Below are positions 36,561 through 56,663 of a stretch of 64,000 bases of DNA, piece after piece. The notes beneath the pieces are model-generated. The model saw nothing but the letters and a program-made list of their open reading frames with translations, ran no database searches and was not told the DNA's origin. The stretch covers positions 6,863,001 through 6,927,000 of the forward strand of contig NZ_CP125380.1 in assembly GCF_034009455.1 (NCBI RefSeq). Reading direction: 5' to 3'. The translations under genes were made by a program, and so were the position numbers. Each line of letters begins with the position of its first letter. Position 1 is the stretch's first letter. Source of the DNA: Pseudomonas sp. P5_109. GTDB taxonomy: Bacteria > Pseudomonadota > Gammaproteobacteria > Pseudomonadales > Pseudomonadaceae.

Positions 36561-37532
36561 TTAACCCGATCCGGATCGGCACGCTGCCAGCCCACTGCGC
36601 AGTCTTTCTGCATCCTGCGCCTCACTGAAAATCAGCTCGATACGTGAATCCTGCCGCCATTCACTGGGCTTCCAGTCCAGCGCCGAGTTATCCACCGCGT
36701 TCACCGAGACCCAGCCGTGGGCGCTGTGGATAACCAGCTTCGCCCGCCTCCAGGCAAGGCTTTCAAGCCAGCGGCCAACCAGAGCAGCATCAAACACCTG
36801 GCTTGGGTGCCAACGCCATCCGATGCTCCAGCCTCCGTCCTGTTCCTGACTCAAGCAAATGGGCAGCGCGGGATCGCTCCAGACTGCCGGCAGCTGCGCC
36901 AATCCCTTGGGCAAAACGAAGTTATCCACACCTGCCCGCGCTTTGGCATTCAGCCCCGGCAACTCGCTCAAGGGTAAAGCCGCCTGCTGCGTCCAGCACA
37001 GGGGGAGCGGCGGCAATTGCCCGGCGATTCGCTGGCGGCCTTCTTCTTCAAGACCTTCAGATTTGTTCAGCAGTAACAATCCCGCATGGCTCAGCGCTTG
37101 CTGCTGCGCCTGCGGCAACGGTTTTCCAGCGGCAAGCGACTGGGCGTCCAACACCAGCACGCATGGCTGCACAGCCAAGACGCCTTGCCACGGCGCTTCG
37201 CTCAATTGCCTGAGCAGCTGCGCAGGATGGCCCAGCCCCGAGGGTTCGATAAATAACCGATCCGGACGCGCCTTGCGCAATAAACGCCCAAGACCAATCT
37301 GAAACGGCGCACCGTTGACGCAACACAGGCAGCCCCCGGCCACTTCCCCCAGTGCGATACCATCGGCGTCCCGGGTCAGTAGCGCAGCATCGAGACCGAT
37401 CTGGCCAAACTCGTTGATCAACACTGCCCACCGCTCACCGGCCGGGCGCTGGGCCAGCAGGTGCTTGATCAGGCTGGTCTTGCCTGCACCCAACGGGCCG
37501 GCAATGACATGAGTGGGGATATTCTGCAGCAT
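36561..37532 (-). CDS. CobW/COG0523-family GTPase (putative metallochaperone)
   Basis: A 323-residue P-loop GTPase. Walker A is GPLGAGKTSLIK near residue 13; the metal-binding CxCC motif GGCLCCVN lies near 70; LLLNKSEGL supplies the guanine-specificity motif. The C-terminal CobW-C domain is short. It belongs to the same superfamily as the larger protein encoded at 37932-39137. The ATG at 37532 is divergent from, and only 27 bp away from, the start at 37560. It may be transcribed from the upstream COG0523 promoter with the small gene in between on the other strand. Role in zinc or another metal is inferred from neighbours. Confidence 0.88.
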   Translation of the reverse strand: MLQNIPTHVIAGPLGAGKTSLIKHLLAQRPAGERWAVLINEFGQIGLDAALLTRDADGIALGEVAGGCLCCVNGAPFQIGLGRLLRKARPDRLFIEPSGLGHPAQLLRQLSEAPWQGVLAVQPCVLVLDAQSLAAGKPLPQAQQQALSHAGLLLLNKSEGLEEEGRQRIAGQLPPLPLCWTQQAALPLSELPGLNAKARAGVDNFVLPKGLAQLPAVWSDPALPICLSQEQDGGWSIGWRWHPSQVFDAALVGRWLESLAWRRAKLVIHSAHGWVSVNAVDNSALDWKPSEWRQDSRIELIFSEAQDAERLRSGLAACRSGSG

Positions 37533-37559
37533 GGTCGATGATTTCTGAGGAGGTAATGG

Positions 37560-37916
37560 ATGCGGTTGATTGGCTTGTCGTTGCTCCTGGCACTCGTTTC
37601 GGGCGAGGCGCTGGCCCAGGCTTGTGTGGTTCACAGCCAGGCCGAGCGGCTGGATGTCCAGGTTTGCCAGCAGAACCGCACCATCCCGCCAAAACTCTTC
37701 ACCGATGGTTTCTGCCAGCCGAACCTGGCGGGGCAGAAAGTCGATGTGCGGTATGTCGATCAATGTCCCGTCGGCGCATTTGGTATCTGCAGCAACGCCC
37801 AAGTCGCCAATATGCCCTACCGCCAGGATATTCACTATTACGGCGTTGCCACCGACGCGGCGTATTTGCAGCCGTACTGCGAGGCCCAGAGCCAGGGCAC
37901 CTGGCTCAAGCCTTGA
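37560..37916 (+). CDS. Small exported Cys-containing protein, unknown function
   Basis: A 118-residue protein with a clear signal peptide (MRLIGLSLLLALVSGEALAQ) and six cysteines in the mature part, suggesting disulphides in the periplasm. AGGAGG precedes the ATG by about 7 bp. I do not recognise the family. It is embedded on the plus strand between two minus-strand COG0523 GTPase genes, in the zinc-related block, so a link to metal starvation is possible but unproven. Confidence 0.75.
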   Translation: MRLIGLSLLLALVSGEALAQACVVHSQAERLDVQVCQQNRTIPPKLFTDGFCQPNLAGQKVDVRYVDQCPVGAFGICSNAQVANMPYRQDIHYYGVATDAAYLQPYCEAQSQGTWLKP

Positions 37917-37931: not shown

Positions 37932-39137
37932 TCAGGCGGCTTCTTCATACCAAGGGCCGAATGGATCAGGGAGCAAACGCCAGCCCTCTACGCCCAACGC
38001 CATTTCCTCATCGGTCAGCAGGCAGGCATCCAGTTCGGCCGTGAGTAACGTGAAGTCGATGTTCTGGCCGATGAATACCAACTCCTGGCGACAGTCCCCG
38101 CTGTCGGCGGTCCAGTGCTTCATGATCCCGGTGGTACTTTCCGGATCCTGCGGCCATTGGTTTTTCGGTACGTAACGCCACCAGCGCCCGGCAAAACCAT
38201 AGCGCATCAAACCGCCGGCCTGGGACCAACTGCCAGCGTCCCTGTGCTTGCTCGCCAGCCAGAAAAAACCCTTGGAGCGCAGCAGCTTGCCGTTGTCCCA
38301 GGGGCCATCGATGAAGTTGAAGAAACGCTGCGGATGGAACGGCCGGCGTGCCCGGTAAGCACTGGAAGCGATACCGTACTCGTCGGTTTCCGGCACGTGT
38401 TCGCCGTGCAGCTCCTGCAACCATCCCGGTGCCTGGGCAGCCTTTTCAAAGTCAAAACGACCGGTGTTGAGAATTTTATCCAAGGGGATTTCGCCCATCG
38501 CCATCGGAATGATTTCCGCCCGGGCGTTGAGCCGTTCCAGTATGGCGATCAGTTCCTCGCGTTGGTGGCTGCTGATCAAATCGATCTTGCTGAGCAAAAT
38601 CACATCGGCGAACTCGACTTGCTCGATCAACAGGTCGGTGATCGAACGCTCGTCCTCTTCCCCCAGTGTTTCTCCCCGGGAGGCCAGGCTTTCGGCAGCC
38701 TGGTAATCGAGCAGGAAGTTCATGCCATCGACCACCGTGACCATGGTGTCCAGGCGTGCGATGTCGTTGAGGCTCTGCCCGTTTTCATCGCGAAAGGTGA
38801 AGGTTTCCGCCACTGGCAGGGGTTCGGAAATACCTGTGGACTCGATCAGCAGGTAGTCGAAGCGACCTTCCTTGGCGAGTTGACTCACTTCCTTGAGCAA
38901 ATCTTCACGTAACGTACAGCAAATACACCCGTTACTCATCTCAACCAACCGTTCTTCAGCGCGATTAAGGCTGACATCACGCTGAACTTCGGTGCCATCG
39001 ACGTTGATTTCGCTCATATCGTTGACGATTACCGCAACCCGTAAACCATCGCGATTACGTAGTATGTAATTAAGAAGTGTACTTTTCCCGGCACCAAGAA
39101 AGCCGGAGAGAACGGTCACGGGGAGTCGATTGGACAT
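37932..39137 (-). CDS. zigA: COG0523 zinc metallochaperone (ZigA-type)
   Basis: A 401-residue CobW-family GTPase likely to deliver zinc to target proteins in zinc-poor conditions. Walker [19 protein letters not shown] is at residues 12-29, the metal motif [14 protein letters not shown] near 67-80, and [15 protein letters not shown] and LSKIDLIS follow. The C-terminal CobW-C domain ([13 protein letters not shown]) is large, with Trp-rich [13 protein letters not shown], as in ZigA-like members. GAGGA 8 bp before ATG 39137 decides among three nearby ATGs. A Zur-like site sits 51 bp upstream, shared with the divergent small exported protein gene. Confidence 0.9.
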
Positions 39138-39187
39138 CTGCATATTCCTCACAGGGATGCCCTGTCGCTGCGTCGGGCTTTAGGCAA

Positions 39188-39202
39188 TGTTATAGCATAA
39201 CT
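39188..39202. promoter_or_regulatory. Zur-like operator between zigA and a small exported protein gene
   Basis: TGTTATAGCATAACT matches the gammaproteobacterial Zur consensus TGTTATANTATAACA at 13 of 15 positions (counting N). It lies between the divergent starts at 39137 and 39279 and could repress both under zinc sufficiency. Confidence 0.7.
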
Positions 39203-40855: not shown

Positions 40856-40896
40856 GATGAAAGCCTGTTCATGAAAAAGGCATCGTCGATTGTATT

Positions 40897-40911
40897 GTTA
40901 TACTATAACAT
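40897..40911. promoter_or_regulatory. Perfect Zur-box palindrome between the amidase gene and folE2
   Basis: TGTTATA-C-TATAACA is a perfect 15-bp palindrome and matches the Zur consensus exactly. It lies 41 bp upstream of the amidase ATG and 30 bp upstream of the folE2 ATG at 40942, in position to control both directions. Confidence 0.85.
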
Positions 40912-40941
40912 GGCAATTCAACTCCCACGATGGACCTGCTC

Positions 40942-41838
40942 ATGAATGCGCTGACTCTGCCGGATATCGCCGCGCAGGCCTCACGCCAAGCCCTGCCACT
41001 GGAGTGGGTGGGCATGTGCGGCATTGCTCTTCCTGTTTTGTTTGATGGCCAACGACTGAATGCAAAGGCCGATGCCGGCGTGAGCCTCGACGATGGCAAT
41101 GCGCGCGGCATTCATATGTCACGGCTCTATCTGGCGCTTGAGTTGTTGGAGCAGGAACGCCTCTCTCCGGCTTTATTGCGACGGGTTTTGCAGCGTTTTC
41201 TTGAGAGCCATGAGGGGCTATCCAGCAGCGCTCACTTAACCATTCACGCCGATGTGTTGCTGAAAAGGCCGGCTCTGATCAGTCCATTGGCAGGTTGGAA
41301 AAGCTATCCGGTCAGCATCGAAGCGCGCTTGAAAAACGCAATGTTCCACGTGGAACTAAAAATCGACCTGCCTTATTCCTCAACCTGTCCATGCTCTGCG
41401 GCCCTTTCTCGACAGTTGATTCAGCAGCAATTCGTCGACGATTTCGCCAACAAGTCACTGCAACACGCTGACGTTTTAGCGTGGCTTGGGACCACGAACG
41501 GCATCGTCGCTACACCTCACAGTCAACGCAGCAACGCAAAGTTGCGCGTGCGGCTGGCTGATTTTTTGGACGAGTTGCCTCTGATCGCCGTCATCAACGA
41601 CGCCGAAGCCGCACTCGGTACAGCTGTTCAAACAGCAGTAAAACGCGCCGACGAACAAGCCTTCGCCCTGGCCAATGGTCAGAACCTGATGTTCTGCGAA
41701 GACGCCGCACGCCGTTTGAATCAGGCCCTGAAACGCTCCACCGGCATCAATGCCTTCCACATTCGTGTGATCCACGCCGAAAGCCTGCACGCCCATGACG
41801 CCGTAGCCGAAAGCCGATTCAACTGGGAGGTCGCATGA
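40942..41838 (+). CDS. folE2: GTP cyclohydrolase FolE2 (type IB, not strictly zinc-dependent)
   Basis: It makes 7,8-dihydroneopterin triphosphate from GTP for folate synthesis and replaces the zinc enzyme FolE when zinc is scarce. The 298-residue protein starts MNALTLPDIAAQ like its relatives; motifs include MCGIALPVLFDGQ, the active-site Cys in STCPCSAALSRQLIQ, TPHSQRSNAKLRVRL and ESLHAHDAVAESRF. An in-frame ATG at 40930 exists but lacks a ribosome-binding site; GGA before 40942 favours the shorter form. It is the first gene of a seven-gene operon and overlaps the next gene by 4 bp (ATGA). Confidence 0.95.
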   Translation: MNALTLPDIAAQASRQALPLEWVGMCGIALPVLFDGQRLNAKADAGVSLDDGNARGIHMSRLYLALELLEQERLSPALLRRVLQRFLESHEGLSSSAHLTIHADVLLKRPALISPLAGWKSYPVSIEARLKNAMFHVELKIDLPYSSTCPCSAALSRQLIQQQFVDDFANKSLQHADVLAWLGTTNGIVATPHSQRSNAKLRVRLADFLDELPLIAVINDAEAALGTAVQTAVKRADEQAFALANGQNLMFCEDAARRLNQALKRSTGINAFHIRVIHAESLHAHDAVAESRFNWEVA

Positions 41839-42503
41839 TTGCTTGCCACGCTTTGCGCTGGGGCGCACCGGGCCAACCACTCACCCCAGCGCTGAACCTC
41901 GAACTGCCGAGGGGCAGCCTGACCGCCATCATCGGTGCGAACGGTTCTGGCAAAAGCAGCCTGCTGAAAGTCATCGCCGGCTTGCAAAAACCGTTGGCCG
42001 GAAAAGTGCGACTGAATGTTCCATTCAAGGGCGGCGTGTCGTTCCTGCCCCAGCAACAACACTTGGACAGGCAATTTCCGATCAGCCTTCAGGCATTGGT
42101 CGCCGCCGGTTTCTGGGGCAACATACAATCCCCGGAGATCCGTAGCCAACGACTGAATACCGTCCTCGAAAACTGGTGCCTGAAGGGTCTGGAAGATCGG
42201 CCCTTGATGGCCCTCTCCGGCGGTGAATTGCAACGTGCCCTGCTCGCCCGTTTGAGCCTGACCGACGCACCTTTGCTGCTACTCGATGAACCCCACGCGG
42301 CCCTCGATGAATGGGGTCAAGAGTTGCTCTGGAAGCACCTGCACGAGTGGCACCACGAAGGCCGGACACTGATGGTCGTGTGCCATGACCTCGCCGCTGT
42401 CCGCGACCACATCCCCCACACGTTGCTGATCAAAAGCAGCGGTTGCGTACTCGGTTCGAGCTTCGAACTGATCCGCCAACAACCACGAGCGCAGGTGGCC
42501 TGA
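41835..42503 (+). CDS. Zinc-type ABC transporter ATP-binding protein (ZnuC-like)
   Basis: The ATPase of a metal importer, 222 residues. Walker A GANGSGKSSLLK lies near residue 36, the signature LSGGELQRALLARL near 126, and Walker B LLLLDEPHAALDEWG follows. It overlaps folE2 by 4 bp and the permease gene by 1 bp, which indicates translational coupling. This is a second zinc-type system; the standard znu operon would be elsewhere in the genome. Confidence 0.9.
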   Translation: MIACHALRWGAPGQPLTPALNLELPRGSLTAIIGANGSGKSSLLKVIAGLQKPLAGKVRLNVPFKGGVSFLPQQQHLDRQFPISLQALVAAGFWGNIQSPEIRSQRLNTVLENWCLKGLEDRPLMALSGGELQRALLARLSLTDAPLLLLDEPHAALDEWGQELLWKHLHEWHHEGRTLMVVCHDLAAVRDHIPHTLLIKSSGCVLGSSFELIRQQPRAQVA

Positions 42504-43369
42504 TGATCGCTGCCGTGCATCTCTGGCAACCCTTCCACGAATTCGTCTTCATGCGGCGGGCGTTGCTCGGTGGCTTGGTCCTGGCGTGCAGCACGGCGCC
42601 CCTGGGCGTGTTTCTGATCCTGCGGCGCATGAGCCTGATTGGCGATGCCGTCGCCCACGGCATCCTCCCCGGTGCGGCCTTGGGTTTCTGGTTTGCCGGA
42701 TTGAGCCTCCCGGCATTGACCATCGGCGGCCTCGGTGCCGGCCTGAGTATGGCCGGCCTCGCGGCCTGGATTACCCGACGCACCGGCCTGCGAGAGGACG
42801 CCAGCCTTGCAGCGATCTACCCGATTTCCCTGGCCATCGGCGTGCTGATTCTCGGCATCGCCGGCAAGCGCCTGGACCTGTTGCACCTGCTGTTTGGCTC
42901 GGCGCTGGCAGTAGACGGCCCGACCTTGACCGGCATGCTCTGGGTCTCGGGCCTGAGCCTGATTGCCATGGTATTGATCTACAAACCACTGTTGCTCGAC
43001 ACCCTCGACCCGCTCTTTCTGCAAACCGTCAGCCGCCTCGGCCCACTGGCCCACGGCGTGTTCCTGACGCTGGTGGTGATGAACCTGGTCATCGGTTTCC
43101 AGGCGATCGGCGCGTTGATGGTAGTCGGCCTGATGATGTTGCCGGCGGCTGCAGCGCGCTTCTGGAGTCGCCGCTTGCCTGTGCTGATCGTCATTGCCGC
43201 CTTGCTCGGCAGCCTCTCGGTATGGCTCGGTCTATTGATCTCGTTCTACTTCTCGCTGCCCAGTGGCCCGGCAATCGTGCTGGTGGCCGGTGCTGGATAT
43301 TTGTTGTCCGTGGTGTTCGGGCCGGTACACGGCTTGCTGCGCCGCCCGCCTTTGCTCACATCCCAATGA
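42503..43369 (+). CDS. Zinc-type ABC transporter permease (ZnuB-like)
   Basis: A 288-residue inner-membrane permease of the ABC-3 family. It starts MIAAVHLWQPFHEFVFMRRA and has the typical RRMSLIGDAVAHGILPGAALG region, followed by several transmembrane helices (LIGFQAIGALMVVGLMMLPAA is the family core). The ATG overlaps the stop of the ATPase gene by one base. It forms the membrane channel with the ATPase and the binding protein that flank it. Confidence 0.9.
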   Translation: MIAAVHLWQPFHEFVFMRRALLGGLVLACSTAPLGVFLILRRMSLIGDAVAHGILPGAALGFWFAGLSLPALTIGGLGAGLSMAGLAAWITRRTGLREDASLAAIYPISLAIGVLILGIAGKRLDLLHLLFGSALAVDGPTLTGMLWVSGLSLIAMVLIYKPLLLDTLDPLFLQTVSRLGPLAHGVFLTLVVMNLVIGFQAIGALMVVGLMMLPAAAARFWSRRLPVLIVIAALLGSLSVWLGLLISFYFSLPSGPAIVLVAGAGYLLSVVFGPVHGLLRRPPLLTSQ

Positions 43370-43380
43370 GGTGTTACCCG

Positions 43381-44256
43381 ATGCGCGCTTTACTCGTGCT
43401 GTTCAGCTTGATGGTGTCGATGTCGCTGTCTGCCGCCGAAAAACTTCAGGTGGTCACCAGCTTCAGCATCTTGGCCGACATGACCCGACAGGTCGGCAAG
43501 GATCATGTCCAGATCACCAACATGGTCGGCCCGGACGCGGATGCCCACACCTACGAGCCGACACCGGACGACGCCAAGGCACTGCTCAAAGCCAGGCTCA
43601 TCATCAAGAACGGCCTGGGTTTCGAGCCCTGGCTCGATCGCCTGGTGACGAGCACAGAGACCCGTGCGCCGGTCATCAGCGCGAGCCACGGTGTCATACC
43701 GCGTAGCCTGGATGAAGACGGCGAAAACGTTCCCGACCCGCATGCCTGGCATAACCTGGCGAACACCGAGTTGTACATCGCCAACATCACCAAGGCGCTG
43801 ATCGCCGCTGACCCGGCGAACACCGCCGACTACGAGCGCAACAGCAAGGCGTATCTGAAACAGGTCTACGCCCTGCTCGCCGAAGCCAAGGCCAAACTCG
43901 GCTCGCTGCCACCGGGCAACCGCAAGATAGTGACGTCCCATGACGCCTTCGGTTATCTCGGCCAAGCCTACGGCATCGAGTTCATGGCGCCTCAAGGCCT
44001 GTCCACCGAGCGCGAACCTTCAGCCGGGGAAGTAGCCGCCCTGATCACCCAGATTCGCCAGGCCAAGGTCAAGGCGGTGTTCATGGAAAACATCAAGGAC
44101 GCGCGCCTGCTCAAGCAGATCGCCGATGAAAGCGGCGCGCAGATCGGCGGCACTTTGTACTCCGATGCGCTCGCGGCGAGCGGTCCGGCCAGCACCTTCA
44201 CCGGGTTGTTCGAGTACAACCTCAACACCCTGTACAACGCGTTGAGCCAGCCATGA
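43381..44256 (+). CDS. Periplasmic metal-binding protein (ZnuA-like, cluster A-I)
   Basis: A 291-residue substrate-binding protein of the ZnuA family with signal peptide (MRALLVLFSLMVSMSLSA). Candidate metal ligands are His in DADAHTYEPTPDD, His in DPHAWHNLAN, His in TSHDAFGYL and Asp in LYSDALAAS. It lacks the long His-rich loop of typical ZnuA, having only LDEDGENVPDPHAWH there. The ATG at 43381 follows GAGGT; the frame is open far upstream, but that part overlaps the permease. The next gene overlaps by 4 bp. Confidence 0.9.
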   Translation: MRALLVLFSLMVSMSLSAAEKLQVVTSFSILADMTRQVGKDHVQITNMVGPDADAHTYEPTPDDAKALLKARLIIKNGLGFEPWLDRLVTSTETRAPVISASHGVIPRSLDEDGENVPDPHAWHNLANTELYIANITKALIAADPANTADYERNSKAYLKQVYALLAEAKAKLGSLPPGNRKIVTSHDAFGYLGQAYGIEFMAPQGLSTEREPSAGEVAALITQIRQAKVKAVFMENIKDARLLKQIADESGAQIGGTLYSDALAASGPASTFTGLFEYNLNTLYNALSQP

Positions 44257-44813
44257 TCCGCAAGAATCCTTCCGGAGATATACCGCTGATTGCCGAGTCG
44301 GCCTATGTCGACAAGACGGCGATCATCTGCGGCAAAGTGGTGATTGGCGAGAACGTGTTCGTCGGGCCCTACGCGGTGATCCGCGCTGACGAAGTCGATG
44401 ACTCAGGTGACATGCAGCCGATCACCATCGGTGCCAACTCGAACATCCAGGACGGTGTGGTGATCCACTCCAAATCGGGTGCCGCGGTGACCATCGGCGA
44501 ATTCAGTTCCATCGCCCACCGCTCGATCGTCCACGGCCCCTGCACCGTGGGCAATCGGGTGTTCATCGGTTTCAACAGCGTGCTATTCAACTGCGTGGTC
44601 GGTGACGGTTGCGTGGTGCGGCACAACTCGGTGGTCGACGGGCGCGATCTGCCTGAGGCGTTCTACGTGCCCTCCACCACACGGATCGGCCCCAACACCG
44701 ACCTCTCGCAATACCCGCCGGTGAGCGTCAGTGCCTCGGAGTTTTCCGAAGATGTGGCGCGCACCAACGTCGATCTGGTGCGCGGCTACAAAGCCCAGCA
44801 AAACGAGTTCTGA
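44253..44813 (+). CDS. Gamma-carbonic-anhydrase-like left-handed beta-helix protein
   Basis: A 186-residue hexapeptide-repeat protein. Repeats such as AIICGKVVIGENVFVGPYAV form the beta-helix, and three conserved His (GVVIHSK, SIAHRS, IVHGP) match the gamma-carbonic anhydrase metal site. Members of this type use zinc or iron; in Zur clusters they may serve as substitutes for zinc-only carbonic anhydrases. It overlaps the binding-protein gene by 4 bp and lies 2 bp before the dihydroorotase gene. Catalytic activity is not assured. Confidence 0.88.
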   Translation: MIRKNPSGDIPLIAESAYVDKTAIICGKVVIGENVFVGPYAVIRADEVDDSGDMQPITIGANSNIQDGVVIHSKSGAAVTIGEFSSIAHRSIVHGPCTVGNRVFIGFNSVLFNCVVGDGCVVRHNSVVDGRDLPEAFYVPSTTRIGPNTDLSQYPPVSVSASEFSEDVARTNVDLVRGYKAQQNEF

Positions 44814-44815
44814 CC

Positions 44816-46153
44816 ATGAGTAGCGTGCTGATTCGCAATGCCCGGCTGGTGAACGAAGGCCGTGTGTTCGAGGGCGATCTGCTGGTGAGCAACGGCCGTA
44901 TCGTGAAAATCGCACGCAGCATTCACGATGAAAATGCCAAGGTGGAGCTCGATGCCAAGGGCCAGTGGCTGCTGCCCGGCATGATCGACGACCAGGTGCA
45001 TTTTCGCGATCCTGGCGCGCCCGACAAGGGCAGCATCTACACCGAATCCCGGGCCGCGGTGGCGGGTGGCATCACCAGCTTCATGGACATGCCGAACACC
45101 AGCCCGCCGACCCTGACCCTCGATGCACTGGCGGACAAGAAGCGCCGCGCGGCGATCAATTCCGTGGCCAACTACGGCTTTCATTTTGGCGTGAGCAACG
45201 ACAACCTCGACACCGTCGCCGCGCTCAAGCCTTGTGAAGTGGCCGGGGTAAAAGTGTTCATGGGCGCCTCCACCGGCAACATGCTGGTGGACGACCCACG
45301 CATTCTCGAGCGGCTCTTCGCCGAAGTGCCGACCTTGCTACTTGCCCACTGCGAGCACACGCCCAGCATCGAATCCAACGCGGCCAAATTCAGAGAGCAC
45401 TTTGGCGACTCCCCCCCTCCGGCCGCTCATCCACTGATCCGCGATGCCCAAGCGTGCTTTCGCTCATCGTCAATGGCGGTCGACCTGGCGAGAACACATG
45501 GCACTCGCCTGCACGTGCTGCACCAGACAACGGCTCGGGAACTGGCCTTGTTCGAGGACAAGCCACTGCCTCATAAACGCATCACCGCTGAAGTCTGCCT
45601 GCATCATTTGCTGTTCGATGATCGCGACTACCCTGACCTTGGCAACCAGATCAAATGCAACCCGGCGATCAAGACACAAGCTGACCGCGATGCCCTGCGC
45701 CAGGCCCTGTCGAGCAACCGGCTGGACATCATCGGCAGCGACCACGCGCCGCACACCTGGTCGGAAAAGCAGCAACCCTACTGGCAGGCACCGTCCGGTC
45801 TGCCGCTGGTACAACACGCGCTGCCCGCGCTGTTGGAACTGGTCGCGGAGCAGATTTTGCCGATCACTACGCTGGTGGCAAAAACCAGTCACCGTGTCGC
45901 AGACCTGTTCGCCATTCCCGATCGCGGTTATCTTCGAGAGGGCTATTGGGCAGATCTGGTGCTGATCAAACCTGAACCTGGCGGCGTTGCCGTTTCCACG
46001 CAACCGATCCTGTCGCAGTGCGGCTGGACACCCTTCGCCCGCCGCAGCTTTCGACACAGCGTCAGCACCACGATCGTGTCGGGGCAAATTGCCTGGCACG
46101 ACAAACGTCTAAATGACAGCTGCCAAGGTTTGCCCCTACGGTTTATGCGATAA
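44816..46153 (+). CDS. Dihydroorotase paralogue (PyrC/PyrQ-like)
   Basis: An amidohydrolase of 445 residues for the third step of pyrimidine synthesis, in a Zur-type operon. The expected first-metal motif HxH reads DDQVHFRDPG (Gln60, His62), a variant I also recall from some other bacterial dihydroorotases. The bridging Lys lies in GVKVFMGASTGNM, His ligands in LLAHCEHT and RLHVLHQTT, and the Asp in IGSDHAPHTWSEKQ. It probably backs up the main PyrC under zinc shortage. It is 16 bp upstream of the ThrRS-like gene. Confidence 0.9.
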   Translation: MSSVLIRNARLVNEGRVFEGDLLVSNGRIVKIARSIHDENAKVELDAKGQWLLPGMIDDQVHFRDPGAPDKGSIYTESRAAVAGGITSFMDMPNTSPPTLTLDALADKKRRAAINSVANYGFHFGVSNDNLDTVAALKPCEVAGVKVFMGASTGNMLVDDPRILERLFAEVPTLLLAHCEHTPSIESNAAKFREHFGDSPPPAAHPLIRDAQACFRSSSMAVDLARTHGTRLHVLHQTTARELALFEDKPLPHKRITAEVCLHHLLFDDRDYPDLGNQIKCNPAIKTQADRDALRQALSSNRLDIIGSDHAPHTWSEKQQPYWQAPSGLPLVQHALPALLELVAEQILPITTLVAKTSHRVADLFAIPDRGYLREGYWADLVLIKPEPGGVAVSTQPILSQCGWTPFARRSFRHSVSTTIVSGQIAWHDKRLNDSCQGLPLRFMR

Positions 46154-46169: not shown

Positions 46170-47063
46170 ATGAGTACGCCGACCATGATCCAGATCACCT
46201 TGCCCGATGGTTCATTGCGTGAGTACGACCAACCGCTGTCCGTACATGAAGTGGCCGCCAGCATCGGCCCTGACCTGGCCAGCGCTGCCGTAGCGGGCCG
46301 GGTCAATGGTGTACTGGTGGACTGCGAATACATGATCGAGGCGGATGCCCGGGTCAGCATTGTCACCCCCCGGGAGCCGGACGGCCTGGAGATCCTTCGC
46401 CGCTCCTGTGCCTTGATGCTGGCCATGGCGGTCAAGCAACTCCACCCGCATGCACAAATGCGCGCGGGCAAGGAGTTGGGCGATGGTTTCTTTTACGAGT
46501 TTTCCGTCGAGCGCCCCCTGACTCCGGCTGACTTGCCCCTCATCGAAGCGCGCATGCAATCACTGGCTGCGACCAATCACTCGATCCGCCGCCGACCTCA
46601 TCGTGAAGAGATTCCGCTGTATCGACTGGGGGACACCGAGTACCAGAGCCATGGACCGCATGTCCCCACCACCAAGGTCTTGCAGGCGTTTGCCCTCGAT
46701 CACATCAGCGGCACACTGCAACAACGGATCTACGGCACCTGCTGGTCCAGCCACCAGGAACTGCAACAATGGAGCGTTCCGCCCCACGTGGTCGTCGTGA
46801 GCATGGATGACCGTCAGGCGACTTATGCGCAAGCGGTGACCGATTCCTTGCGCCAACGAGGCGTGCGCGCCAAGGCCGACCTGCGTAACGAAAAAGTCCG
46901 CTACAAGATTCGCCAGCACAGCCAGACGGTGCCTTACCTAGTGGTGGTTGGCGAAAAAGAACAGGCTGGGGGGTTTGTCAGTGTGCGCAGTCGCACGGGG
47001 GAGGATTTTGGCCGGATGGCTGTCGAGGCGGCTTGTGAGTGGTTGAGTCAGCCGGGGATCTAG
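46170..47063 (+). CDS. Threonyl-tRNA synthetase-derived protein lacking the catalytic domain
   Basis: A 297-residue protein built from ThrRS parts, whereas full ThrRS has about 640. Residues 6-66 form a TGS domain (IQITLPDGSLREYD). Residues 75-200 resemble the N2 editing domain, but the HxxxH motif is replaced (SCALMLAMA: Leu82, Met86) and the catalytic Cys region reads QSHGPHVP with Ser160. At about residue 201 the sequence jumps to the anticodon-binding domain (VRAKADLRNEKVRYKIRQHS). About 290 residues, including the zinc-binding aminoacylation core, are missing, so it cannot charge tRNA. It could bind tRNA-Thr or thrS mRNA. It is the last gene of the folE2 operon. Confidence 0.88.
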   Translation: MSTPTMIQITLPDGSLREYDQPLSVHEVAASIGPDLASAAVAGRVNGVLVDCEYMIEADARVSIVTPREPDGLEILRRSCALMLAMAVKQLHPHAQMRAGKELGDGFFYEFSVERPLTPADLPLIEARMQSLAATNHSIRRRPHREEIPLYRLGDTEYQSHGPHVPTTKVLQAFALDHISGTLQQRIYGTCWSSHQELQQWSVPPHVVVVSMDDRQATYAQAVTDSLRQRGVRAKADLRNEKVRYKIRQHSQTVPYLVVVGEKEQAGGFVSVRSRTGEDFGRMAVEAACEWLSQPGI

Positions 47064-50656: not shown

Positions 50657-52567
50657 TCAAACTTCGTCCTTGAGCTTGAGCAACGGCTCCTGAAACCGCA
50701 GCAAACGACCGGCATTACCCAACACCAACAAGGTGCTGAGGTTATGCAGCAATGCCGCAATCATCGCCCCGGCAGCACCGAGCCAGCCGAACGCGGCGAA
50801 GGCCACAATGGCCAGGGTCCAGCCCAGGCCGATGATCACGTTGACCTGCAATGTCTGGCGGCACTGCCGACTCAGGCGCACGCAGGTGCCGAGGCGGCGC
50901 AGGTCGCTGCCGATCAACACGATGTCTGCCGATGCCAGGGCGATGTCTGCACCGCCTGCGCCCATGGCCACACCGACCACGCCAGCCTTGAGGGCCAGGG
51001 AGTCGTTGATGCCATCGCCGACCACCATCGGCCGGAAGCCGCTGTCGATTTCCTTGAGCACGCGGTTCAGCTTGTCTTCGGGCAGGGCTTGCGCTTCGAC
51101 GTCGCTGATCCCGACATCCCGGGCGAGCGTTTGCGCAACGCTGTGCCGGTCACCGGTGAGCAACAACTGACGACCCAATCCGAGGTCGCGCAATTCACCC
51201 AAGGCAAACTGCGCTTCGGGTTTGACGCTGTCGGCCAACAACAGCCACGCGAGGAATTCACCATTGAGCGCGAGCCCGGCAATCGGACCGTCGTGATCGG
51301 GAACCGCCGTTGTGCTGATGCCCAATTGCGCGAACAACTCCGGCCGGCCAAGCGCCGCTTCGCCCTGCCCGGTCATCGCCACCACACCCAGACCCTGGCG
51401 CTCATGAATGTCAGACAGCAGCAGGAAATGCTCCTGGGTCACCAACCCCGCGAGCGCTCGGCTGACCGGGTGACTGCTGGCCGAACCAAGGCTGGCAGCG
51501 AGCGCCAGGACATGGCTGCGATCCTCCAGCGGACTGTCGATGGATTGCAGGCGCAGGGTGCCGAAGGTCAGCGTTCCGGTCTTGTCGACCACCAGCGAAG
51601 TCAGGTCCGCCAACTCTTCGAGGAAGGCAGAGCTGCGGATCAGAATCCCGTGGCGTGCCGCTACCGCCACCCCGGCAATTGCCGTGGCCGGTGCCGACAA
51701 CACCAGTGCACAAGGACAGGCCGCCACCAACACCGCGAGCATCGCCTGCGCGTTGTTGGTGATGAACCAGGTTACGGCCGCCAGCAGCAACACCAGCACC
51801 ATATAGCTGCCGGCGTAACGCTCCAGCAGACGAGTGATTGGCGGCTTCGAACGTTCGGCGTTCTGCATCAGCGCGATGACTTTGCCGAGGGTCGATTCCT
51901 GGCCTGTGCGGGTCACTTCGATTCGCAGCAGACCGTCGAGGTTGATCGCCCCGCCAAACACCGACATGCCGACGCCCGCCTCCATCGGTACCGATTCGCC
52001 GGTTATGGAGGCGGTGTCCAGACTTGCCTGACCGGACAACACCCGGCCATCCGCCGGCACCCGGTCACCGGCCCGCACCTCGACCAGATCGCCGGCCTTG
52101 AGCGTGCCGTTGTCGACTTCGATGATGGAGCCGTCCGCCTGCACCTTGCGTGCGTGACTGCGGGTCAGTTTGCCGAGGGCGTGAATGGCTTCCTGGGAGC
52201 CGATCACGCTGCGCTCCTCCAGCACGTGGCCGAAGATCATGATGATCGGCAACAGCGCCGCCGTCAGCAGGTCCCCGGTAGCCCACGCACCCAGCATGGC
52301 CAGGGCAATCAATTGATCGGTAATGCCGTGCAGGCTCGGATAACGCAGGCTGTACCAGGCCGAACGCATGACTGGCACAGCGACCAGCAACGAGGCAAAC
52401 CCAAGCAACAATTGACTGACACCCGTTTGCTCCGGCGCCAGCCATCGCCAGATCAAGCCGAGCGCAAGAAGGCCCAACGCGAGCATGGCCAGTGTCAGTT
52501 GACGCGCGGCGCGGCGCTGTTCGGCCGAAGACAACAGGCTCGGTGCAGCGGCGGTTTGAGCAGTCAT
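50657..52567 (-). CDS. hmtA: Heavy-metal P-type ATPase (HmtA-like, zinc/copper)
   Basis: A 636-residue P1B ATPase. It lacks the N-terminal CxxC metal-binding domain. Visible are the actuator motif DTASITGESVPME, the membrane metal site AACPCALVLSAPATA, the phosphorylation site VVDKTGTLTFG, the nucleotide-domain SSHPVSRAL, and GDGINDSLALKAGVVGVAMG. It most resembles P. aeruginosa HmtA (PA2435), reported as a zinc and copper importer, which is also linked to hflK/hflC-like genes; this supports import rather than export, but direction cannot be read from sequence. It is the last gene of the operon and overlaps the preceding gene by 4 bp. Confidence 0.88.
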   Translation of the reverse strand: MTAQTAAAPSLLSSAEQRRAARQLTLAMLALGLLALGLIWRWLAPEQTGVSQLLLGFASLLVAVPVMRSAWYSLRYPSLHGITDQLIALAMLGAWATGDLLTAALLPIIMIFGHVLEERSVIGSQEAIHALGKLTRSHARKVQADGSIIEVDNGTLKAGDLVEVRAGDRVPADGRVLSGQASLDTASITGESVPMEAGVGMSVFGGAINLDGLLRIEVTRTGQESTLGKVIALMQNAERSKPPITRLLERYAGSYMVLVLLLAAVTWFITNNAQAMLAVLVAACPCALVLSAPATAIAGVAVAARHGILIRSSAFLEELADLTSLVVDKTGTLTFGTLRLQSIDSPLEDRSHVLALAASLGSASSHPVSRALAGLVTQEHFLLLSDIHERQGLGVVAMTGQGEAALGRPELFAQLGISTTAVPDHDGPIAGLALNGEFLAWLLLADSVKPEAQFALGELRDLGLGRQLLLTGDRHSVAQTLARDVGISDVEAQALPEDKLNRVLKEIDSGFRPMVVGDGINDSLALKAGVVGVAMGAGGADIALASADIVLIGSDLRRLGTCVRLSRQCRQTLQVNVIIGLGWTLAIVAFAAFGWLGAAGAMIAALLHNLSTLLVLGNAGRLLRFQEPLLKLKDEV

Positions 52568-53622
52568 TGTGCAGCTCCCTGAATGATCAGGCGGGAATCG
52601 TCTTTGGGATCGACCGTAGTGACCGATCCGGCCTGGCCGAGAATTTTCGGCATGCGCTCACGGTAAATCCGCAGCAACATTTGCGGATCAGTGCCTTGCT
52701 GTTGTGCCTTGGCCAGGCTCAACACCGTGGCCGTGTCAGCTGACGCTTTGGCCAGTCGTTCACTCGCCTGGGCATGGGCTACCTGCAGCGTGCGGTCGGC
52801 TTGTTCGTTGGCAGTCTGCGTCAGCTTCTCGGCTTCAGTGCGCGCATTGGCGACGGATTTATCGGCTTGCTGGCTGGCCGTCAGTACCGCGTTGAAAGCG
52901 TTCACCGCCGGACTGGGCAAGCTCGATTGCACATCGACCCGCGCCACTTCGATCCCCAGTCCCTGCCCCGTCGCCGTGAGTTCAGCAAGACGCTGGTTGA
53001 TGCCCTGCACCAGATCGCCTCGCAAGCGCTCGCGTCGTTCCGCCGCCTGACTGTCAGCGCCGATCAATTCCGGGCGAGCGACCAGGATAGTGTCCAGATC
53101 CCGTGCGGCGGTGAGTGCCACTGCGCTGCGAGTGACTAAGCGATCCAGTGCCGGCAACACATGTTCGCCTTGAAGCACGAATGCGTAAGGTTCGGTGACT
53201 TTGTAGAAAACCCGAACATCGAGTTGCACCACACCGGCATCACCGGTTAACAGATAGCCGGAGCCGGCAAGGGCATCGCTGATGGGCGTGGCAAAACTGG
53301 CCACGCGATCGGCCTGTATTGCAGCATCGCTGCGTAACAGACTTTCCACCCGACGCTCGATGACCCGGTCCGCGGCCGGCAACAAAATCACCTGTTCAAA
53401 AGGTTGCGGCCAGGCCAGTAACAGCCCGGCATTCTGAATGCGATCCAGCGCACCGAAATGCAAAACCACCGCGCGATTTTGTGGATCGATCTGCCGCACA
53501 TTGGAAAACGCCCACGCCAACGCCGCCAGTACTGTCACTGCGTACAGGGCAATAAACGCCAAGCGCCCGGCCTGAATCCAAGGGCTGCTCAACTCATTTG
53601 TTCCACGTGGAACCAAACTCAT
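52564..53622 (-). CDS. SPFH/HflC-like membrane protein in the metal ATPase operon
   Basis: A 352-residue protein with one N-terminal transmembrane helix (LAFIALYAVTVLAALAWAF) and an SPFH (band 7) domain (QIDPQNRAVVLHFGALDRIQ), followed by a long Ala/Glu/Gln-rich helix (about 230-320). True HflC regulates the FtsH protease; this paralogue is in a metal cluster and may scaffold the P-type ATPase or control its turnover. Overlaps neighbours by 4 bp on both sides. Confidence 0.85.
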   Translation of the reverse strand: MSLVPRGTNELSSPWIQAGRLAFIALYAVTVLAALAWAFSNVRQIDPQNRAVVLHFGALDRIQNAGLLLAWPQPFEQVILLPAADRVIERRVESLLRSDAAIQADRVASFATPISDALAGSGYLLTGDAGVVQLDVRVFYKVTEPYAFVLQGEHVLPALDRLVTRSAVALTAARDLDTILVARPELIGADSQAAERRERLRGDLVQGINQRLAELTATGQGLGIEVARVDVQSSLPSPAVNAFNAVLTASQQADKSVANARTEAEKLTQTANEQADRTLQVAHAQASERLAKASADTATVLSLAKAQQQGTDPQMLLRIYRERMPKILGQAGSVTTVDPKDDSRLIIQGAAQ

Positions 53623-54659
53623 GGCTGCGATCCGGACTTGTTGTCGAGGCTCGGCGGACCGTCAACCAACACCCGGAACGGTGCCGCGTCGGTGCGCAAA
53701 ATCAGCTTGGTGCCCGGCGTCACCACCGTGCCCAAGGTGTCGAGGGAGCGCAACAGGTTGTAGAGCTGCGGTGATCCCGCGTAGGCGCGACCGTAAATCT
53801 GCGCGGCTTCGACGCGCGATTGCGCTTCGATATCTGCCGCTTTCACCGTGGCATCGGCCTGCACAATTCGCGCATCACGTTCGGCGGCAGAACGAATTTG
53901 CGCGGCTTCACGCTTGCCGATGGCCGTGCGCTCAGTGGCGATGGTTTCACGCTCGGCGCGCATCCGGTCGACGGTCGCGGTGAGTGTCACCGAAGGCAGC
54001 GTCAGTCGTTCGATGCCGACCTGCAACACGCGCACGCCATAAGTGGTGAGCAACTGCTGATCAATTTGCTTGCGCAGTTGTGCTTCGAAATCGGCAATGC
54101 GTACCTGGCTGGCATCGGTATTCACCAGGTTCGCCAGATCAAAACTGCTGGCGGTGGTTTCCAGTGCGGAGCCGACAAAGGTACGAATCTGCCGCGCGGC
54201 TTCATCAGGTTGGTTCTGCACCGCGCGCATGAAACGTTGCACATTGTCCGGGTCGCCTTGCACCTGCCACGCCACGTAGGCCTGAACGATGATGCGCAAA
54301 CCGTCCCGCGTGCCCACATCCTGCAAACCGCTGGACGTGGTGCGCAGTCGTAGATCCACCGGGATCGCCGCTTCGAACGGTGCCGGCCAGCGCCAGCCCA
54401 GTCCCGGTTCCAGCAAGACTCGTGAAGGGTTGCCGAAGCGCGTGATCACCGTGGCTTCCCCCGAACGCACCTGCACCAGGCTCGCGGCGGCAACCGCAAA
54501 CGCCACCAGCAATGCCGCCCACCCCATCCGACGCCATGGAAATGGACCGGCCTCCTGAGGATCGCCGTGGTGATGATGGTGATGGCCGTGGTGATGCCCA
54601 CCATGGCCGTGATCGTGGCCAGCGTGGTCATCGTGATCGTGAATATGGGACTGGCTCAA
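53619..54659 (-). CDS. SPFH/HflC-like protein with His-rich N-terminus
   Basis: A 346-residue membrane protein. The first 33 residues contain 16 His (including a run of six), mixed with Asp and Gly, a likely cytoplasmic zinc-binding tail. One transmembrane helix follows (WAALLVAFAVAAASLVQV), then an SPFH domain (TVITRFGNPSRVLLEPGLGW) and a coiled-coil tail with ETIATERTAIGKREAAQIRS. It resembles HflC/HflK, but the His tail is unusual for that family. It would form a complex with the adjacent SPFH proteins. Start overlaps the upstream stop by 4 bp. Confidence 0.85.
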   Translation of the reverse strand: MSQSHIHDHDDHAGHDHGHGGHHHGHHHHHHGDPQEAGPFPWRRMGWAALLVAFAVAAASLVQVRSGEATVITRFGNPSRVLLEPGLGWRWPAPFEAAIPVDLRLRTTSSGLQDVGTRDGLRIIVQAYVAWQVQGDPDNVQRFMRAVQNQPDEAARQIRTFVGSALETTASSFDLANLVNTDASQVRIADFEAQLRKQIDQQLLTTYGVRVLQVGIERLTLPSVTLTATVDRMRAERETIATERTAIGKREAAQIRSAAERDARIVQADATVKAADIEAQSRVEAAQIYGRAYAGSPQLYNLLRSLDTLGTVVTPGTKLILRTDAAPFRVLVDGPPSLDNKSGSQP

Positions 54660-56614
54660 TTGGCGGCTCCTGGCTGAGCGGTTTTACGCGACGGCGCAGG
54701 GTCAACCGGCAGCGTGAACGTACGGAGATCGATGGTCGGCGCATTGCTGCTGCCGCCCAGTCGATGATCGAGAACCAGCAATTTGGCGTTGGCCAAACCC
54801 TGGGACAACTGGCTGAAATACTGCTCCAGCACGAAGGCCTGGCCAGCGCTGGCATAGGCTTTCTGCTCGGCGTTGAATTTCAGGTCCGCCGCGTCGGCGC
54901 CAGCAGTGATTTCACGGGCGCTGGCCGTCGCCTGATCGCGGGCGATGCTAGCCTGCAGCTGCGCCTGGTTGGTGGCCTCGGCAGCGGCGCCGCGTTCCCG
55001 GGCGATCAAGGCTTGCGCACCAATCTGCGCCGCTTGTACACCGTGATAGGCGTTGGCCGCACCGGCCGGGGGATGAATCGCCTCGACCACCGTGGCGAGA
55101 ATTTCCACGCCGCTGTCGAGTTTTTGCAAGTCAGCCTGGACGGCGCGGCCGATTTCGTCGGCCAGCCCTACCCTGTCCTCGCCCAGCAAGCCGTCGAGGG
55201 TGCGCGAAGCGAAATCGTGAACCAGGATTCGGCTGGCGGTGCTGCGAATCAACATCGGCACATCGGCACTGTTATAGGTCGCGGCCAGCGCTGCCTGATC
55301 GCTCAGACCGATGCGATAGACGAAGCGCACATCCATGTTGACGATCTGAAAGCTCTGCTTGTCGGCTCGGCTGCTGGCGATAACCTGGGATTTGTCGTTC
55401 ACATGGCTGGCGTCCCACAGGCGATTGGCAATCGCCGGGGCCGGGCCTTCGGCGGGGTCGGCCTGGGCGGGAGCCGTGGTTTCGCCAACACTGGTGGCCA
55501 ACTCATGTACCACGCCATTCTCGACGCTCAACACCCGGCCCAAAGGCCACGGCAAGCCAACATGCAAACCGGGGCCAAACACCTCCACCGGCTTGCCGAA
55601 TCGCTCGTAGATACCACGGCCTTGCAGGGCAATTTCGTGAATGCCGGTCAGGGACCAGCCAACCAGCGAAACCACCGCCAACACCGGCAGCAATGCCCGA
55701 CGCATGTAAGTAAAGGCCCAGATCTGCCGAAGATCGATGCCGAAACGGTTATGCAATTCGTGCTGCAACGCCAGCAATGGCTGGGGTGGCCAGCGCAGCA
55801 TGTCGGCGACAAAACTGCGCGCCAACAACTCGGGCTCAACACGCTCGCGGCGCGGGCTGAACAAAGACAACACTGCACGCAGCAACAGTTCGGCCGCCAC
55901 CAGCCCCGGCAGCAGCCCGATCAACACCGCCAGGCGTACGGGCCAAACCGATGTTTCATTGGCAAACAGCAGGCAAAAGGCACCGAGGACCAGGCTGATG
56001 ATCGCCACGCGTGTCAATTGCGCCAACGCGGTGGCTTCCGGCCATTGAGCGGGGTTTTCCTGCGCCAGATGACGCTCCATCACCAACAGTGCGAAGGCCA
56101 GCAGTAAGGAACACGCGGCACCGACAGTGGCCGTCAGGCCCAGTGCCGCCGGGGGTAACGCGAGGTTCCAGACCTGTTCGACACCCAACAACGCCAACAA
56201 TGCCCAGCCGCCAAGCCACAGCGTCGGCGCGCCGATTTGCCCGAGCAGGTACTGCGATTTCTGGCTGATGCGGTCCAGCAAACGTTCATACCATCCCGAA
56301 GGCGCGACAGATTCGTCGACAACGACCTCGGACACGACCGGATTCATGGCGCGGGCCCGCCACCGGGACACCCCCCAGGCCGATTGCAAACCCGCCATCA
56401 ACACCAGCAACGCCGCGCTCAAGTTCAACAGCAACGCTGGCCACAGTGTTTGCGACGCAAACAGCCCGGCAAAAAACGCCAGCAGCACACCCACTGTCGT
56501 GAGTACGCCCGCACCGATGGCGAACCGGCGCAAACGCCGCCCTTGAATGAACGCCTGCTGAAAGCGCGGCAACCCGGCTAACGGCGTTTCATCAGTATCG
56601 AGATCGACTTGCAT
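54656..56614 (-). CDS. HflK-like SPFH protein fused to an N-terminal multi-span membrane domain
   Basis: A 652-residue protein, about 230 residues longer than HflK. The N-terminal half contains about six hydrophobic segments (for example LTTVGVLLAFFAGLFASQTL, LGGWALLALLGVEQVWNLAL, VAIISLVLGAFCLLFA). The C-terminal half has the HflK/SPFH pattern GRGIYERFGKPVEVFGPGLH, WPLGRVLSVENGVVHEL, and a helix ending in AQLQASIARDQATASA. It is the first gene of the operon with two further SPFH genes and the metal ATPase. TGGAG is near the ATG. A Zur-like palindrome is 35 bp upstream. Confidence 0.85.
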   Translation of the reverse strand: MQVDLDTDETPLAGLPRFQQAFIQGRRLRRFAIGAGVLTTVGVLLAFFAGLFASQTLWPALLLNLSAALLVLMAGLQSAWGVSRWRARAMNPVVSEVVVDESVAPSGWYERLLDRISQKSQYLLGQIGAPTLWLGGWALLALLGVEQVWNLALPPAALGLTATVGAACSLLLAFALLVMERHLAQENPAQWPEATALAQLTRVAIISLVLGAFCLLFANETSVWPVRLAVLIGLLPGLVAAELLLRAVLSLFSPRRERVEPELLARSFVADMLRWPPQPLLALQHELHNRFGIDLRQIWAFTYMRRALLPVLAVVSLVGWSLTGIHEIALQGRGIYERFGKPVEVFGPGLHVGLPWPLGRVLSVENGVVHELATSVGETTAPAQADPAEGPAPAIANRLWDASHVNDKSQVIASSRADKQSFQIVNMDVRFVYRIGLSDQAALAATYNSADVPMLIRSTASRILVHDFASRTLDGLLGEDRVGLADEIGRAVQADLQKLDSGVEILATVVEAIHPPAGAANAYHGVQAAQIGAQALIARERGAAAEATNQAQLQASIARDQATASAREITAGADAADLKFNAEQKAYASAGQAFVLEQYFSQLSQGLANAKLLVLDHRLGGSSNAPTIDLRTFTLPVDPAPSRKTAQPGAAN

Positions 56615-56648: not shown

Positions 56649-56663
56649 CGTTACGATATAACG
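56649..56663. promoter_or_regulatory. Weak Zur-like palindrome upstream of the SPFH/metal ATPase operon
   Basis: CGTTACGATATAACG has 5-bp inverted arms and matches the Zur consensus TGTTATANTATAACA at 11 of 15 positions (counting N). It lies 34 bp before the first gene of the operon and could place it under Zur control. Confidence 0.5.

Follow-up and report, generated by a model that had tools for sequence, protein, structure and literature searches.

In the usual account, paralogues of zinc-dependent enzymes whose genes are linked to Zur control replace those enzymes or raise their copy number (PMC2770081). A 2009 survey describes Zur-linked paralogues of threonyl-tRNA synthetase (ThrRS) with conserved zinc residues and, in the part available, lists none for P. 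fluorescens (PMC2770081). The closest published model for the gene described here is T2 of Anabaena (thrS2), a second ThrRS that is controlled by Zur and impaired in editing (PMC4787780). In addition, E. coli ThrRS represses its own mRNA, the leader of which carries two hairpins that resemble the anticodon loop of tRNA-Thr (PMC11088916, PMC9976931). Here, we analyzed a stretch of 64,000 nucleotides from Pseudomonas sp. P5_109 (contig NZ_CP125380.1, positions 6,863,001 to 6,927,000; the window), in which an operon of Zur type contains thrS2-delta, a gene for a protein derived from a second ThrRS (ThrRS2) that has no catalytic core. Although it can neither replace the zinc enzyme nor raise its copies, this Zur-linked paralogue persists in a group of soil Pseudomonas (54 of the 398 Pseudomonas genomes sampled), probably as a regulator and not as an enzyme. 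Our best explanation, to which we assign a probability of roughly 40%, is that thrS2-delta is a Zur-induced, zinc-free regulator that recognizes threonine anticodon arms and most likely represses thrS translation in zinc starvation.

The open frame at 46170-47063 (+ strand) has 297 codons. Because its first ATG is not conserved (among 10 close relatives, five have GTG at the corresponding place, three CTG and two CAG, GTG being a possible start too) and the ATG at 46185 is kept in all 11 rows (the 10 relatives and our genome), the true start is probably Met6, which would place thrS2-delta at 46185..47063 (+). The protein consists of a TGS domain (residues 6-66, 46185..46367), a shortened N2 domain, formerly the editing domain (residues 67-200, 46368..46769), and an anticodon-binding domain (residues 201-297, 46770..47060), all on the + strand. 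The first and last were recognized by Pfam above the cut-offs (PF02824 over residues 7-66, 46.8 bits against 22.2; PF03129 over residues 207-293, 60.2 bits against 21). Together with the fold matches, these identify the TGS and the ThrRS-type anticodon-binding domains of a bacterial ThrRS. A tRNA_SAD match at residues 151-179 stayed below threshold (12.8 against 24 bits), as did the match to the bacterial ThrRS model TIGR00418 (103.2 bits against 383.65). In the AlphaFold2 model (predicted local distance difference test score 95.5, predicted template modeling score 0.90), 188 residues of the predicted TGS-N2 part fit the N-terminal part of E. coli ThrRS (1TJE) at 1.6 Å, and 94 residues of the predicted anticodon domain fit that of E. 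coli ThrRS at 1.1-1.4 Å. Pfam, alignment and predicted fold thus bear out the three domains named in a preliminary description of the locus.

Compared with the 640-residue ThrRS of the same genome (L001; 134 of 292 positions identical), thrS2-delta lacks residues 231-534, which are the 304 residues of the catalytic core, two segments of the editing domain (139-164, 26 residues; 204-212, nine residues), one residue at 586 and the last eight residues. The preliminary description was therefore right that the core is absent, and its count of about 290 residues has to be raised to 304. The junction lies at codons 200/201 (46767..46772, +), where 304-305 core residues are absent relative to ThrRS1/ThrRS2. 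A full-length ThrRS2 from another Pseudomonas (L150) is identical to thrS2-delta at 186 of 289 shared positions.

To describe what was lost and kept across relatives, we used a set of 88 truncated sequences, from which loci repeating an already included genome were left out, and 21 full-length ThrRS2 sequences. The columns of all three catalytic zinc ligands (Cys/His/His) are empty in 88 of 88 truncated sequences. Because these ligands and the core are gone, thrS2-delta, as judged from the alignment, cannot charge tRNA, in agreement with the preliminary description. In the editing site, neither His of HxxxH remains in any of the 88 (Leu82 and Met86 in the window), the Cys is replaced in 84 of 88 (Ser160), and the column of the conserved Lys of the editing loop is empty in 87 of 88. 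Editing relies on four metal ligands, one of which, the GPH His (His164), is kept in the window and in 83 of the 88 sequences. The protein thus does not have the set of HxxxH and DxCRGPH residues that marks a ThrRS-type editing domain, and editing appears very unlikely. The residues earlier assigned to Leu82, Met86 and Ser160 and the retained GPHVP motif (at 162-166) were read correctly, and the earlier "probably" on the loss of editing can be strengthened to very probable. The statement that both zinc-binding regions are lost holds for the catalytic site, and has to be qualified for the editing site by the remaining His164. A trans-editing factor that clears Ser-tRNA-Thr, like archaeal ThrRS-ed, would be consistent with the preserved N2 fold and GPH His, but it is scarcely credible given the lost HxxxH, Cys and Lys, and the archaeal ThrRS-ed model NF011500 (PRK14938) gave 25.7 bits against a cut-off of 362. 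Archaea use a different ThrRS editing domain.

In the full-length ThrRS2 (L114, L116, L148-L163), the three catalytic zinc ligands are kept in 21 of 21 sequences, and all 21 already have Met in place of the second HxxxH His, so its loss predates the truncation. Because of this HxxxM, full-length Pseudomonas ThrRS2 may be impaired in editing, like Anabaena T2.

The core of the part that would read RNA does not vary. Ten residues of the anticodon-binding domain (D237, R239, E241, K246, R248, G261, E264, R273, G277 and G281) are the same in all 88 truncated sequences. Nine of them are likewise constant across the 21 full-length ThrRS2 and 14 other full-length ThrRS, and E241 is near-invariant in full-length ThrRS2 (0.95). 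In E. coli ThrRS, Arg583, Glu600 and Arg609 are among the residues that contact the anticodon. Among the truncated sequences Arg275 is relaxed (58 of 88), and new conserved states have appeared at Arg78 (87 of 88) and Leu82 (84 of 88). The mean isoelectric point (pI) of the anticodon domain is 9.18 in truncated sequences, against 8.89 in full-length ThrRS2 and 5.83 in seven housekeeping ThrRS. The invariant, basic core, along with the anticodon-arm mimics of the thrS leader described below, lends indirect support to the RNA-binding role suggested in the preliminary description.

The conservation and basic pI of this domain, and its predicted fold, serve equally well an alternative in which thrS2-delta is a tRNA-Thr binder. 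The protein would hold uncharged tRNA-Thr at times when zinc-poor ThrRS fails, and would protect it from degradation or keep it from triggering the stringent response; the thrS leader would be a side target or none. Low zinc does make the housekeeping ThrRS of Anabaena dissociate, with loss of aminoacylation (PMC4787780). The part that grips the acceptor end in the active site is gone, however, and a protein of this small size would face competition from EF-Tu and ThrRS. We regard this as unlikely but worth keeping in view, as the evidence here does not separate it from a regulator acting on thrS. Improbable, in our judgment, is a ribosome-associated factor like the mitochondrial mL39 (MRPL39), which would bind the ribosome in zinc starvation. 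Ribosomal protein paralogues are likewise under Zur control, and the TGS-N2 fold is shared, but ThrRS ancestry alone could explain this fold. MRPL39 is also said to have shed its C-terminal region, whereas in thrS2-delta the anticodon domain is kept and conserved.

We assessed how widespread the truncated form is in 398 Pseudomonas genomes, 81 of which had a match at E <= 1e-42; the form was assigned by reading the individual rows. The truncated form occurs in 54 genomes, in 53 as a single piece and in one (G144) as two pieces in a 329-codon frame. The other matching genomes comprise 16 with a close full-length ThrRS2 (64-73% identity in the N-terminal part), nine with a more distant one (58-61%) and two others. 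None of these rows, those of the 54 truncated copies included, contains an internal stop, with the caveat that copies were retrieved by similarity to thrS2-delta and badly decayed ones could escape. Because our genome is a single contig and so many genomes share the form without a stop, we ruled out a frameshift or an assembly error that removed the core in frame, which the preliminary description had named as a possible flaw. The genome search that it had called for also shows the operon whole or partial in relatives. Among the best 80 matches of a separate scan, the carriers include P. laurylsulfativorans, P. jessenii, P. mandelii, P. umsongensis, P. migulae, P. lini and strains labelled P. 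frederiksbergensis. Outside Pseudomonas, no truncated form was found in the rows listed for 36 genomes, one from each of 36 further genera in the order, beyond which no wider search was made; the ThrRS frames listed there all have 471 to 693 codons. NCBI names among the best 120 proteins mostly follow the C-terminal domain and are sometimes threonyl-tRNA synthetase. A literature search by titles and abstract openings, thin on subscription journals, found neither a published description of the truncated form nor a published Pseudomonas thrS operator.

In a first sample of 95 genomes, all nine carriers of the truncated form also have a 652-codon frame for the housekeeping ThrRS. A full-length partner is thus at hand, and thrS2-delta might bind monomers of the zinc-free ThrRS and alter their activity or stability, as T1 and T2 of Anabaena form heterodimers under low zinc (PMC4787780). 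Yet the dimer core of ThrRS consists of the catalytic and anticodon domains (PMC11088916), and because the catalytic domain is absent here, such an interaction, raised in the preliminary description, becomes less likely; we consider it very improbable.

A maximum-likelihood tree (123 distinct sequences, 289 shared columns) unites all 88 truncated sequences in one clade with a bootstrap value of 100. The clade arises from within the full-length ThrRS2, and its exact sister group is weakly resolved (surrounding nodes 61, 93, 64 and 96). Tree and synteny agree on common descent with the full-length ThrRS2 of the pyrC2 operon. Against L150, six truncated sequences measured all lack residues 204-212. 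The core gap covers exactly 231-535 in five of them and 226-540 in L012. In the editing loop, 26 to 37 residues with differing borders are lost in five of six, and the loop is intact in L147 (from G144), which looks like an evolutionary intermediate. Because of the single clade and the common borders, the core was most likely lost once, in an ancestor, and the editing pocket appears to have eroded afterwards; repeated independent truncation is disfavored on the same grounds. Full-length ThrRS2, the 324-residue intermediate and the forms of about 292 residues make up an evolutionary series from a synthetase to a non-enzyme.

The truncated gene is under purifying selection that is looser than in the neighboring genes. 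Ratios of nonsynonymous to synonymous substitution rates (dN/dS) were computed pairwise by the Nei-Gojobori method for pairs with dS of 0.1 to 1.2, which are not independent of one another. The median among the 88 truncated sequences is 0.163, with 0.122 in the TGS domain, 0.170 in N2 and 0.202 in the anticodon domain. Over the same positions, full-length ThrRS2 (n=21) has 0.245, with 0.130 in its catalytic core, and housekeeping ThrRS (n=7) has 0.073. One may ask whether thrS2-delta is a slowly decaying relic, the remainder of a gene that drifts after core loss and has no selected job. Across 64 named loci its dN/dS is the highest of 12 genes (0.158, against 0.041-0.099 for the 11 others), operon neighbors are being lost in the same group, and the editing-loop deletions vary in size. 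But all three domains lie far below 1, all 54 copies are free of stops, the invariant residues and the confident predicted fold remain, and full-length ThrRS2 has the higher dN/dS. A relic is therefore, in our view, decidedly improbable.

The gene is the last of a seven-gene operon (folE2-znuC2-znuB2-znuA2-cam-pyrC2-thrS2-delta) with a perfect Zur-box palindrome, TGTTATACTATAACA, at 40896..40910, 19 bases upstream of folE2. A scan of the window allowing up to three mismatches gave two matches against 0.16 expected. This upstream Zur box marks the operon as a putative member of the Zur regulon, predicted to be induced by zinc limitation, and bears out its earlier assignment to the Zur type. Promoter-like and terminator-like sites are not in excess in the region (three against 1.6 in shuffles, standard deviation 1.4; five against 5.5).

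The fate of the operon in relatives is uneven. At 64 named truncated loci, thrS2-delta is intact in 64, folE2 in 62, znuC2 in 50, znuB2 in 49, znuA2 in 48, cam in 39 and pyrC2 in 26, where intact means one match over at least 80% of the gene length in one open frame; two znuA2 scored as remnants (L057, L079) are yet fully covered by pieces. This count leaves out L106, which comes from a second contig of the L102 assembly, and L107, which is cut by a contig end. The 64 of 64 holds partly by construction because the loci were fetched through thrS2-delta, whereas the loss of neighbors does not. Remnants of lost genes lie between the Zur box and thrS2-delta, for instance in L073 and L085. Since the neighbors are lost while thrS2-delta stays, it is, as far as gene content tells, evidently independent of PyrC2, Cam and this importer. 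Among the named carriers (L049-L108), the Zur operon is eroding, and pyrC2, cam and znuCBA2 are gone in many species.

We read thrS2-delta as a regulator because, with the enzyme lost, the RNA-reading and N-terminal parts are kept under selection in an operon headed by a Zur box. Among candidate targets, the most specific is the thrS leader, which in our genome lies outside the window (G000:C1:2294005-2294025; the other leaders are among L167-L186). We compared 26 leaders, 18 from Pseudomonas and eight from other genera, leaving out L180, which has a GGU hairpin. Two hairpins with a 7-nt loop and NGU at the anticodon place occur in 18 of 18 Pseudomonas leaders. The proximal one has 7 bp and the loop UUGGUAG (UUCGUAG in one leader) and ends about 20 bases upstream of thrS. 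The distal one has 5-7 bp, is 58-75 bases farther from thrS as measured between the two loops, and carries UGU in 14 leaders, CGU in two, AGU in one and GGU in one. First-order resamples of the 26 leaders (300 each) contained two such hairpins in 0.3%. With at most one mismatch, the proximal hairpin was found in 199 of 199 genomes. By the strict rule, one of the eight leaders from other genera has both hairpins, four have one and three have none (L178, L184, L185), and in L178 and L185 the proximal hairpin is present with one stem mismatch. Among 11 distinct hairpin versions (without L184), 96.1% of the cells pair, with changes on both sides at two of seven pairs. Support from covariation is modest because, among 500 shuffles, the score was reached by 14, the number of doubly changed pairs by 35 and the number of pair types by 418. 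Rfam assigned no family at the gathering score to the two leaders searched (L001, L020); in L020, a sub-threshold match to RF02194 on the antisense strand (42 against 59 bits) overlaps the leader. Elsewhere in our own genome no further copy of the proximal hairpin was found: the exact match lies at thrS only, and one site with three mismatches has no anticodon. By its design, the Pseudomonas thrS leader appears to be an operator of the E. coli type, with two mimics of the tRNA-Thr anticodon arm.

We also considered self-regulation through a mimic upstream of the gene itself. One NGU hairpin occurs in one of 88 truncated and two of 21 full-length loci, and two occur in none; the expected rate of one such hairpin in a resampled thrS leader is 0.079, so there is no signal of self-regulation.

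The events that we infer for a repressor of thrS, from induction to RNA binding, target and direction of effect, would be as follows. A Zur-controlled second ThrRS would have lost its catalytic core in frame once and become a zinc-free RNA-binding regulator. In zinc starvation, Zur would leave the operon promoter and thrS2-delta would be made. Its anticodon-binding domain would recognize NGU anticodon arms, chiefly the two mimics in the thrS leader, and the TGS-N2 part of the bound protein would block the ribosome. The N-terminal part of E. coli ThrRS probably obstructs the ribosome on thrS mRNA in a similar way. The effect is likely to be repression, since the N-terminal part has been retained and the TGS domain is the most constrained. 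The outcome would be less new zinc-requiring ThrRS while zinc is short, and repression would hold even as uncharged tRNA-Thr piles up, although such tRNA would detach ordinary ThrRS from the operator.

Several points weigh against this explanation. The hairpins are genus-wide and occur also where thrS2-delta is absent. As they are present with or without it and are explained by ThrRS, they do not single out thrS2-delta, and the thrS hairpin is, going by its design, first of all an operator for ThrRS itself. E. coli ThrRS probably binds its operator as a dimer in which each subunit takes one hairpin, and the catalytic half of the dimer core is missing from thrS2-delta. Asn240 is kept in 60 of 88 truncated sequences and is invariant in the full-length ThrRS aligned, a relaxation that could alter anticodon reading. 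Over its full length the protein is not basic (mean pI 6.60), and the dN/dS of its gene is 1.6 to 4 times that of the 11 genes of the same locus. Finally, holding back an essential enzyme during starvation could come at a cost. We therefore suggest only tentatively that thrS2-delta is a repressor induced by zinc starvation and dedicated to an aminoacyl-tRNA synthetase gene, cut from a paralogue and keeping the parts with which E. coli ThrRS silences its own mRNA. If so, transcriptional sensing by Zur would be wired to translational control by anticodon mimics, and a synthetase that needs zinc would be kept in check by its own regulatory half in a zinc-free copy. This makes a testable link between metal starvation and the control of tRNA charging.

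The remaining operon genes are on the + strand: folE2 (40930..41838; NF010200, 325.3 bits against a cut-off of 215), three open reading frames for an ABC importer (41835..44256, from about 41835, 42503 and 43372), which by resemblance we take to be znuC2, znuB2 and znuA2, the gamma-carbonic-anhydrase-like cam (44253..44813; hexapeptide repeats, gamma-carbonic-anhydrase models below cut-offs) and the dihydroorotase paralogue pyrC2 (44816..46153; NF006688, 699.6 bits against 535). Upstream, zigA encodes a COG0523 GTPase (37932..39152, - strand; NF038288, 679.3 bits against 600), and a second Zur-box-like site with two mismatches (39188..39202) lies between zigA and a small open reading frame on the + strand. 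A second cobW/COG0523 GTPase gene adjoins zigA (36561-37835, -). Further downstream, a Zur-box-like site at 56650-56662 (one mismatch on the - strand, two on the + strand) lies 36 bases upstream of a Band_7/SPFH gene (54656-56614, -), which heads a - strand run to a P-type ATPase gene (50657-52567). This run may also be controlled by Zur. The next gene in it (53619-54659, -), presumably SPFH-like, has a His-rich start, HIHDHDDHAGHDHGHGGHHHGHHHHHHGD, a possible metal-binding tail.

Among known systems, the full-length ThrRS2 of Zur clusters (in P. gingeri, P. fuscovaginae, P. chlororaphis PCL1601 and others) shares with thrS2-delta its place behind pyrC2, its TGS, N2 and anticodon domains and the Met at the second His of HxxxH in the editing site, but owns a 305-residue catalytic core and a full editing loop. 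Anabaena T2 differs in that it is full length, charges tRNA-Thr, pairs with T1 and retains HxxxH (PMC4787780). Archaeal ThrRS-ed, which hydrolyzes Ser-tRNA-Thr, is likewise a ThrRS fragment without a catalytic site (PMC9976931), but its editing is active, whereas in thrS2-delta the editing residues are lost. Like thrS2-delta, mL39 is a ThrRS derivative without the catalytic core and has the TGS-N2 fold, a similarity of fold only, but it is a resident of the mitoribosome that has shed the C-terminal region. E. coli ThrRS, as the repressor of thrS, shares the anticodon and N-terminal domains and acts at a leader with two anticodon-like hairpins (PMC11088916); there the enzyme itself represses, whereas here a core-less paralogue from a Zur operon is proposed to act on a similar leader.
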